Of a stretch of DNA of 38,516 bases, positions 35,204 through 38,516 are shown piece by piece. The notes under the pieces are model-generated. The model was not told the origin of the DNA. It searched no databases and worked only from the letters and a program-made list of their open reading frames with translations. The stretch comes from Halorubrum lipolyticum DSM 21995 (lineage in GTDB: Archaea > Halobacteriota > Halobacteria > Halobacteriales > Haloferacaceae): assembly GCF_000337375.1 (NCBI RefSeq), contig NZ_AOJG01000041.1:227071-265586 (forward strand), written 5' to 3'. Position 1 is the first letter of the stretch; each line of letters starts with the position of its first letter. The translations under genes and the position numbers were made by a program.

Positions 35204-36505
35204 ATGCGACGACGAACACTCATCACGGGAGCGGCGGCCAGCGGTATCGGCGGGATAACACTCATCGGGAGCGGCGCGTTCGACACGGCGACGGCCGAGC
35301 GGACCGCGACGGTGAACTTCGCTGACGACGAGAACGCCTATCTCGGGCTGATCTCGGAGAGCGAGTACGCGGTCGAAGAGGAGGGCGAACTCGCCCTCGA
35401 CTTCACCGAGGTCTCGGCCGACAGCGACGGGATCGGCCGCAACTCGGAGTACTACTTCGACGCCGTGTTCGCGATCGCGAACCAGGGGACCCAGCCGGTT
35501 TCGGTCACCGCGTCGAGCGACGCGGAGTCGTTCGACGGCGACTTCCGGCTCTACCCCACCGACGACCGGAGCGGGACCCTCGACGACGCGGACAACGTGA
35601 TAGACATCGGCGTGGGCGACCAACGCTCGGTCGGTACGCATATCCAGACGGGAGACGTGGACACGAGCAACGACGTGGCCATCGACATTTCTATCGAGGC
35701 GGTCTTCGACGACGAGGGGGACGACGGCGGTGACGAGCCCGACGAGCCCGATCCGGAGCCGCCGGAGACGATCGATATGACGGAGTTTTTCTCCACGTCG
35801 AGTCTCGTCGCCGCAGACGGGAGCCCGCTCGACGACGACTCCGTCGTCGCGGTCCGCGCGGAGCCGACGGCGGAAAACGAGGATCCGGAAGAAGACGACG
35901 AATTCGTCTCGTACCCGGACGACACCGAAATCCCGTTGCTCGCGGTCGACGGCAACGTCCTCGGATTCGGATCGGACCTCGGTTCCGACGGAAGCGACGT
36001 TGATGCGAACCGAACGCTCATGGCGAACGCGTGGCAGACCGTCCTCGACGGTACCGGAACGGTCCTGTACGACGAGACGCACGGCCAGACACTCACGCTC
36101 GACGCCTTCTCCGCGCTCGAATCGGTCGCCGAGGACCGCGGATTCGACGTCGAGGCCATCGGATCGGAGTTCGTCGACGCCCTCAACGACGCGGACGCGG
36201 TGATGGTCGCCACCGACAACGACGACGTGGCGAGTGACGGTGGGTTCTCCGACGCGGAGCGGTCCGCGCTCGCCGACTTCGTCGACGACGGCGGCGCGGT
36301 GTTCCTCCACGGAACCGCCTCGTTCGACGGGACCTCGAACGGCGTACTGAACGCGGTACTCGACGAACTCGACGCCGGGTTCCGGTTCAACTTCGATCAG
36401 GTGACCGACGAAGAGAACTCCGGATTCGCGCCGTTCGTACCGCGCACGAGCAACTTCAACGACGACGAGTTTCCCGACTTCTTCCTCGCGGAGGGTGAGC
36501 TATGA
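35204..36505 (+). CDS. Tat-exported DUF1102-like plus GIFT/DUF4350-like protein
   Basis: The 433-aa product starts MRRRTLITGAAASGIGG, a twin-arginine signal, then GSGAFDTATAERTATVNFADD, typical of DUF1102-like archaeal surface proteins (about residues 25-170, ending before an acidic Pro-rich linker at about 173-190). The C-terminal domain (about 190-433) has the glutamine-amidotransferase-like GIFT/DUF4350 style: LLAVDGNVLGFG, the conserved YDETHGQ (Asp290 to Gln295), a regular alpha/beta alternation and DDGGAVFLHG. Function unknown. An upstream GTG at 35165 would add 13 residues; the ATG at 35204 starts the Tat signal cleanly. Its stop overlaps the next gene (ATGA). Confidence 0.82.
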   Translation: MRRRTLITGAAASGIGGITLIGSGAFDTATAERTATVNFADDENAYLGLISESEYAVEEEGELALDFTEVSADSDGIGRNSEYYFDAVFAIANQGTQPVSVTASSDAESFDGDFRLYPTDDRSGTLDDADNVIDIGVGDQRSVGTHIQTGDVDTSNDVAIDISIEAVFDDEGDDGGDEPDEPDPEPPETIDMTEFFSTSSLVAADGSPLDDDSVVAVRAEPTAENEDPEEDDEFVSYPDDTEIPLLAVDGNVLGFGSDLGSDGSDVDANRTLMANAWQTVLDGTGTVLYDETHGQTLTLDAFSALESVAEDRGFDVEAIGSEFVDALNDADAVMVATDNDDVASDGGFSDAERSALADFVDDGGAVFLHGTASFDGTSNGVLNAVLDELDAGFRFNFDQVTDEENSGFAPFVPRTSNFNDDEFPDFFLAEGEL

Positions 36506-38516
36506 GACGCCGCAGCGTCCTCATCGGCATCGGCGCGACGGCGGCCGGCGGCGGGGCGATCGCCACCGGCGCGTTCGACACGGCGACGGCCGAACGCGAC
36601 GCGACGATCGCGCTCTCCGACGACGCGAACGCCCTGCTCGCGCTCTCGCCGCTCGACGAGGAGTTCGCCACCGTCGACGACGAGGGCGAGCTGGCGCTCG
36701 TGTTCGACGGGGTCGAGGGAGGGGGAACCGGCTTCGGATCGAACACGGTGTACGAGCTCGACGACGTCTTCGAGGTCCGCAACCAGGGCACCGAGGACCT
36801 CGGACTGTTCGCGCAGGTCGATGACGGCGCGCTCGGCGACGCCGACTTCGAGTTGACCGTCGACGGCGAGGCGATCACCGAGGAGCCGAGCGTCGAACTC
36901 GACACCGGGGAGTCGGTCGCGGTCGGGATCCGGGTCGACGCCGGCGGTGATCCCACGGACGGCGAGGTCGCGATCACGCTGGGCGTCGGCGACGGACCGG
37001 TCGATGAACCGGGCGACGATCCCGGTGAGGAGCCGGGAGACGAGCCCGAGTTCGTCGACGAACTGGTGTTCGACTCGACCGCGAGCCTGCTGGCCGACGA
37101 CGGCTATCTCCCCGACGAGGCGATCGTCGTCGCCGCCGAGGACACCGCGGTCTCCGTCGACACGGACGGCAACGGCGACGACACCACCTACCCGGACGAC
37201 GAGCCGCTGCCGCTGATGGCGGTCGACCAGGACCGACCCATCGTCGCCTTCGGCGTCCCGTTCGCGACGAACGGCGTTCAGTTCGGCCAGTACGGCAACG
37301 AGGAGGTGCTGTTGAACGTGTTCGACGCGTACGCCGACTCCGACACGGTGCTGTGGGACGAGGGGCACGGCCAGTTCTACGACCTCGCCAGCCACGAGTC
37401 GTTCGCCGGCTACGCCGAGGATAACGGCTACGTCGTGGAGGCGACGACGGACCTCGAAGACGACCTCTTCGGGCCGGCGTCCGCGATCGTGATCACGTCG
37501 CCGACGGACTCGTTCAGCACCGACGAGCTCGACGCGCTCGCGTCCTTCTCCGACGCCGGAGGGCTCGTCGTGCTCATGGACCAGTCTGACTTCGACAACT
37601 TCGACGAGACGGACAACCTCAACGCGTTGGCGAACGGGATCGACTCGCAGATCCGGTTCAACGACAACCAGGTCGAGGACGGCGAGAGCAACGACGGCGC
37701 CGACTTCGCTCCGACGACGACTGCGCTCGACACGGGGACGTATCCCGACCTGCTCGCCGACCGCGACGGTCTCGGGCTCGAACTCGACCCGAGCGAGGAG
37801 TACGAGGTCGAGGTCGTCAGCGTCGCCGACGGCGACACGGTCGACGTCCAGTTCGACAACGAACTGGTCGAGACCGTTCGGACGCTGGGTCACGATTCGC
37901 CGGAGACCAGCGCCGGCCCGGAGCTCCCGGAGGAGTGGGAGGGGATCGACGACGTCGACACCCTCCTCGACTACGGCGACGAGGCGACGACGTACGCGCA
38001 AGACCAGCTTCCCGAGGGCGAGACGGTCACCATCTCGTTCGACGAGAACGAGGGACTCCGCGGGGACTTCGGACGGCTGCTCGGACTCGTCACGCTGGAC
38101 GACGGCACCCTGTACAACGAGGCGCTCGTCGCCGACGGGTACGGACGCGTGTACGACTCCGGGCTCGGACTCCACGACCAGCTCTGGAGCGCCGAGGCCG
38201 AGGCGCGCGCGAACGACCGCGGCGTCTGGGCGGAAAGCGACGTGAGCGCGACGCCAGTCGTGGGCGACGGCCCGGTCGACGAGCTGTTCGTCCCGTACGC
38301 GACCGCGGTCGCGGCCGCGGACGGCGGATCGGTCCCGGACGACCGCGTCCCGGTCGAATCCGAGGACGGCGACCCGCTCGTGGGCGTCGACGTCGACAGC
38401 AACGTCGCGCTGGTCGGCGGGCCGCTGCCCGACGAGAGCTTCGAGAGCGGCGAGGGCGGCCCCGGAACCGAGCCGTACGGCAACTACGTCTTCCTCGCGA
38501 ACCTGATCGACGCCGT
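36502..38516 (+). CDS. Tat-exported DUF1102-like / GIFT-like / thermonuclease multidomain protein (partial)
   Basis: Open to the window end, 671 codons visible. In order: Tat signal MRRRSVLIGIGATAAGGG; DUF1102-like region (about 20-165, again GAFDTATAERD); acidic Pro linker (168-182); GIFT/DUF4350-like domain (about 183-425) with WDEGHGQ at 285-291; a staphylococcal-nuclease-like domain (about 434-578); then the beginning of what looks like a second GIFT-like domain. The nuclease active site is complete when aligned to staphylococcal nuclease Asp21, Arg35, Asp40, Glu43, Arg87: Asp445, Arg460, Asp465, Glu468, Arg525. It should act outside the cell on DNA or RNA. Translation is coupled to the preceding gene by ATGA. 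Confidence 0.85.
   Translation, partial: MRRRSVLIGIGATAAGGGAIATGAFDTATAERDATIALSDDANALLALSPLDEEFATVDDEGELALVFDGVEGGGTGFGSNTVYELDDVFEVRNQGTEDLGLFAQVDDGALGDADFELTVDGEAITEEPSVELDTGESVAVGIRVDAGGDPTDGEVAITLGVGDGPVDEPGDDPGEEPGDEPEFVDELVFDSTASLLADDGYLPDEAIVVAAEDTAVSVDTDGNGDDTTYPDDEPLPLMAVDQDRPIVAFGVPFATNGVQFGQYGNEEVLLNVFDAYADSDTVLWDEGHGQFYDLASHESFAGYAEDNGYVVEATTDLEDDLFGPASAIVITSPTDSFSTDELDALASFSDAGGLVVLMDQSDFDNFDETDNLNALANGIDSQIRFNDNQVEDGESNDGADFAPTTTALDTGTYPDLLADRDGLGLELDPSEEYEVEVVSVADGDTVDVQFDNELVETVRTLGHDSPETSAGPELPEEWEGIDDVDTLLDYGDEATTYAQDQLPEGETVTISFDENEGLRGDFGRLLGLVTLDDGTLYNEALVADGYGRVYDSGLGLHDQLWSAEAEARANDRGVWAESDVSATPVVGDGPVDELFVPYATAVAAADGGSVPDDRVPVESEDGDPLVGVDVDSNVALVGGPLPDESFESGEGGPGTEPYGNYVFLANLIDA

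Follow-up and report, generated by a model that had tools for sequence, protein, structure and literature searches.

The analysed stretch of DNA (38,516 nucleotides, hereafter the window) comes from a haloarchaeal genome of 3.43 Mb that is 99.4% complete, and it ends within a nuclease gene whose reading frame of 671 codons (36502-38514, + strand) is open up to the window end. The initial annotation had read this gene as an exported protein with a Tat signal, a DUF1102-like surface region, a GIFT/DUF4350-like domain and a staphylococcal-nuclease (SNase) domain. Its observation was confirmed and its interpretation partly supported: the Tat signal, GIFT and SNase assignments stood, but the lamin-tail domain and a further GIFT module had been missed, as had the coupling of the nuclease gene, in second place, to a tandem partner (Table 1).

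The window stops at a single N (L009:6588), past which the nuclease frame is shifted by one and goes on at L009:6590-7411. Retrieval of this remainder, which the initial annotation had advised, added the rest of the second GIFT module and the lamin-tail domain (Pfam, 70.2 bits against a cut-off of 34.3, E 2.4e-19); the window itself holds only about 70% of the gene. The closest orthologues found in a pattern scan of GTDB genomes belong to Halorubrum, and orthologues carry the whole architecture in one unbroken frame of 935-966 aa. Because the frame break falls on the N and relatives read through unbroken, it is most likely an assembly artefact, and a pseudogene or genuine frameshift was ruled out on the same grounds. 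Downstream of the gene lies a tRNA-Arg(tct). A second lamin-tail protein is encoded in the same genome (G000:C1:88993-89319, within a 486-aa frame).

Table 1. Features of the tandem locus, in window positions, and loci with a divided SNase domain
Feature	Position	Strand	Remarks
Upstream tandem paralogue, 433 aa: Tat signal, DUF1102 pilin domain, GIFT/DUF4350	35204..36505	+	
Nuclease gene, 5' 671 codons within the window	36502..38516	+	continuation L009:6590-7411 after one ambiguous base
Tat signal peptide (MRRRSVLIG...), probable cleavage after ATA	36502..36591	+	from sequence; no lipobox Cys
Tafi-type pilin (DUF1102/TafE-like) domain, aa 31-165	36592..36996	+	directly behind the signal peptide
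First GIFT/DUF4350 domain, aa 186-430	37057..37791	+	conserved D-E-G-H-x-Q motif at 286-291
SNase domain, aa 434-578	37801..38235	+	D443/D445, R460, D465, E468, R525
Second GIFT module, beginning only (aa 592-671)	38275..38514	+	rest at L009:6590-7411
SNase split by inserted GIFT (other loci)	L089, L095, L097, L099, L100, L102, L103, L110, L112, also L090		

The stop codon of the upstream gene overlaps the nuclease start codon (ATGA), and both the pair and the overlap are kept in five Halorubrum loci with the same flanking genes. The upstream paralogue matches the Pfam families DUF1102 (E 2.9e-6, 28 bits, cut-off 22.2) and DUF4350 (E 1.8e-4) as well as the NCBIfam family TafE (E 7.5e-10), and the pilin domains of the two tandem genes form sister groups in a tree (99/91). 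At L051:6001-8835, a nuclease carries the pilin domain of the upstream paralogue, an arrangement that suggests a deletion fusion of the tandem pair.

The SNase domain with an intact active site, as initially proposed, was borne out by several methods. Pfam SNase (PF00565) matches residues 458-577 (41.8 bits, gathering cut-off 21, E 1.6e-10), and the NCBIfam EcnA nuclease matches residues 432-577 (E 4.4e-22), the latter with 78.7 bits and thus below the equivalog cut-off of 180; both fall on the stretch 434-578 to which the domain had been assigned. The catalytic residues lie where the initial annotation had put them (D443-G-D445-T446, R460, D465, E468 and R525), and a phmmer alignment pairs D443, D445, R460, D465, E468 and R525 with D19, D21, R35, D40, E43 and R87 of staphylococcal nuclease. 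Equivalents of this set are invariant in all 15 aligned relatives (44-77% identity). Modelling, likewise advised at the outset, was carried through on the 76%-identical orthologue L047, whose AlphaFold model (pLDDT 80.9) matches the OB-like SNase fold and superposes on SNase crystal structures with target-normalised TM scores of 0.81-0.87. The active-site assignment is no chance similarity, and SNase-type nuclease chemistry is well supported by alignment and model, with DNA or RNA as the predicted substrate. The window protein resembles EcnA and staphylococcal thermonuclease in its catalytic domain, in the spacing of the residues and in the predicted fold, and differs from them in its sub-cut-off EcnA score and its multidomain context. 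It is the only SNase match in the genome.

The first GIFT domain also held up, with a DUF4350 match above the cut-off (38.6 against 30.4 bits, E 1.8e-9) and IFT52_GIFT matches in 39/39 relatives (best E 1.4e-15). At about ten loci (Table 1), a complete GIFT domain is inserted in the SNase domain itself, at about profile position 57 and thus shortly after the D40/E43 segment. An insertion just behind this calcium-binding segment favours a role for GIFT beside the active site, and the probable task of the two GIFT domains that flank the nuclease is to bind substrate or matrix glycans or hold them in position.

The pattern scan gathered 71 haloarchaeal loci, 68 ORFs of which show the order GIFT-SNase-GIFT; the scan patterns lie in the first GIFT domain, meaning that proteins lacking it would escape. 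GIFT-SNase-GIFT is a widespread haloarchaeal family, and the domain order that had seemed unfamiliar proved common in its core. Among these ORFs, 30 carry one or two lamin-tail domains and 10 a pilin domain at the front, while in other relatives the C-terminal tail is of a PKD, dockerin-like, glycine-rich or PGF-CTERM-like kind (the dockerin-like and PGF-CTERM-like ones recognised by eye only). Since most relatives of the core come without the pilin domain, neither catalysis nor export requires it. Literature searches for pilin-nuclease fusions found no description. Domain-wise mosaicism is seen between Halorubrum orthologues: when L050 is compared with L048, the second GIFT module (window-protein residues 601-800) is about 42-71% identical and the preceding domains are mostly more than 72% identical.

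What sets the window protein apart is its N-terminal domain. The likeness to DUF1102 noted in the initial annotation is real but weak in the nuclease gene (17.2 bits, gathering cut-off 22.2, E 0.0059), and the description as a surface region missed the fimbrial identity. NCBIfam TafE, a fimbrial adapter, is matched with E 5e-11 over profile positions 1-157 of 176; the score of 42.6 bits stays below the cut-off of 155, which marks a homologous domain rather than a TafE orthologue, and the TafA score is also under its NCBIfam cut-off. Searched against 177,635 PDB sequences, a profile of the domain has one credible match, 9p0a_C (E 1.3e-13 with and 9.4e-5 without the signal peptide; next match E 0.13), from an entry entitled as the Tafi pilus of Natrinema sp. 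J7-2. The model of the mature domain is of moderate quality (pLDDT 75.7, pTM 0.69); Foldseek places FimA and the FimH pilin domain first and 9p0a (probability 0.98) and the Pyrobaculum bundling pilus 7ueg lower. The FimA-like and 9p0a matches have probabilities of 0.98-1.0 but E-values of only 3e-3 to 4e-2, and overall the E-values are weak (3e-3 to 7e-2) and the TM scores about 0.44-0.51. Given these modest structural scores, it is chiefly the sequence match that identifies the DUF1102-like region as a Tafi-type pilin domain. As in the Tafi pilus subunits (9p0a; TafA/TafC/TafE), a Tat signal is followed immediately by a pilin domain, here a predicted beta-sandwich, with sequence similarity over most of TafE; unlike them, the window protein scores below the TafA and TafE cut-offs, has a large enzymatic C-terminal part and lies outside a taf operon.

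Membership of a true taf operon was ruled out because TafA is absent: TafA proper was not found in this genome, and of the 9 genomes of the genus that carry the nuclease only 4 contain it. A dependence on TafA was likewise discarded, as the overlap of four genomes (9 with the nuclease, 8 with TafA, n=52; hypergeometric 0.023, uncorrected for kinship) is too weak. No stand-alone pilin gene adjoins the tandem pair; the nearest candidates sit on other contigs.

The same pilin domain fronts other cargo. It occurs in 98/167 genomes of the family at E 1e-6 and in 95/242 genomes and 38/74 genera of the class at E 1e-12. Many copies are stand-alone proteins of 180-250 aa, often in tandem, while large proteins carry behind it a GH97 hydrolase, a laminin-G lectin, a right-handed beta-helix, VWA or PKD arrays. 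In nearly all large proteins, the domain begins at residue 28-36, immediately behind the signal peptide, and at six loci (L174, L175, L176, L177, L178 and L182) one or two small pilin genes lie on the same strand ahead of the large gene. Cargo-bearing domains group in a tree (7 changes vs 25 when shuffled), a clustering to which near-copies contribute and which comes from regions chosen for long ORFs. At L172:453-4373 and L173:252-4151, the pilin domain is followed by a GH97 glycoside hydrolase and a glucodextranase C domain.

The reading we favour, with somewhat better than even confidence, is that the gene encodes a calcium-dependent nuclease of the SNase type, exported via Tat and positioned at the cell surface through its N-terminal Tafi-type pilin domain, whose identity would supply a specific mechanism for this placement. 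The nuclease would fold in the cytoplasm and leave via Tat—signal residues R3 and R4 are invariant in the alignment of relatives—and removal of the signal would expose the mature N-terminal strand (ERDATIAL...). As in donor-strand fimbriae, this strand would be expected to fill a groove in an adjacent pilin, so that the protein would hang on, or cap, a Tafi-like fibre with its nuclease and GIFT domains left exposed. Further attachment to the surface or matrix probably comes from the lamin-tail domain; anchoring as a lipoprotein was ruled out, as the visible 671 aa contain no Cys. In FimH-type two-domain tip adhesins, too, a pilin domain is joined to the functional part that the fibre displays, but this is an analogy only, as the window protein has the reversed order (pilin domain N-terminal), Tat export and an enzymatic cargo.

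On this fibre, cutting of extracellular nucleic acid might supply phosphate, nitrogen or carbon, or serve biofilm turnover. The initial suggestion that the protein is a DNase at the cell surface, acting on nutrient or biofilm DNA, is plausible and has a precedent that it had left unnamed: Hvo_1477 of Haloferax volcanii, an extracellular SNase with a C-terminal lamin-tail domain that takes part in surface DNA processing and whose deletion makes growth on eDNA deficient (PMC3929857). With about 330 aa and a lipobox, Hvo_1477 differs from the window protein, which lacks a lipobox and carries two GIFT domains as well as a pilin domain at its N-terminus, and the best reading is that the two may work alike without sharing an architecture. 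The nuclease is of a known type among archaeal surface enzymes, and what is new is the unexpected fimbrial domain by which it would dock.

That domain could also be read without a fibre, as a monomeric beta-sandwich spacer that holds an ordinary secreted or surface-attached nuclease on the S-layer or matrix. The lack of small pilin genes beside the locus, the absence of TafA and the existence of core homologues without a pilin domain all suit a spacer. Yet the domain matches a solved Tafi pilus in sequence, is strictly placed right behind the signal peptide and, as a type, sits in operons with small pilins, and we regard the spacer as a rather unlikely, if serious, alternative to fibre-borne display.

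Departures from a nutritional role seem less probable still. As a competition or defence effector, a surface-held nuclease would destroy incoming phage or plasmid DNA, or the DNA of neighbours; window positions 36502-38514 match the PADLOC model C3a212 (SNc+LTD), which describes a candidate defence protein, with E 1.4e-18, and the mosaicism between Halorubrum orthologues points the same way. A shallow search recognised no immunity or defence genes among the adjacent genes, however, dN is lower than dS in most domain comparisons (dN/dS <1), and the broad haloarchaeal spread suits a nutritional enzyme, which together make such a function improbable. That the polypeptide is enzymatically dead and serves as an adhesin is harder to believe than any of these: although the SNase domain is only one among several modules and the same pilin domain commonly fronts adhesin-like cargo, the catalytic residues are all invariant across the relatives.

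Beyond this locus, Tafi-type fibres may serve haloarchaea as a modular scaffold that receives hydrolases (the nuclease, GH97), lectins and adhesins via a shared N-terminal pilin domain, with this genome's only SNase being fibre-borne, a generalisation for which we see the balance as even. If fibre-borne display is right, archaeal Tat-fimbriae carry folded enzymes and are more than adhesion threads, and Tat export would be used because it can deliver folded multidomain cargo ready-made. This would join three literatures, on archaeal eDNA use, Tafi pili and donor-strand fimbriae, and would give a rule for haloarchaeal genomes whereby, when small DUF1102/Taf pilin genes are followed by a large one that shares their N-terminal domain, the latter encodes the functional cargo of the fibre. 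Many DUF1102-type proteins whose function is unknown would thereby gain a possible role. Candidate partner pilins in the present genome are a pair on contig C15, a pair on contig C38 and the upstream paralogue. On contig C15, an archaeal signal peptidase I gene lies near the tandem stand-alone Taf-like pilins (L126:1803-2990, L126:6717-8305).
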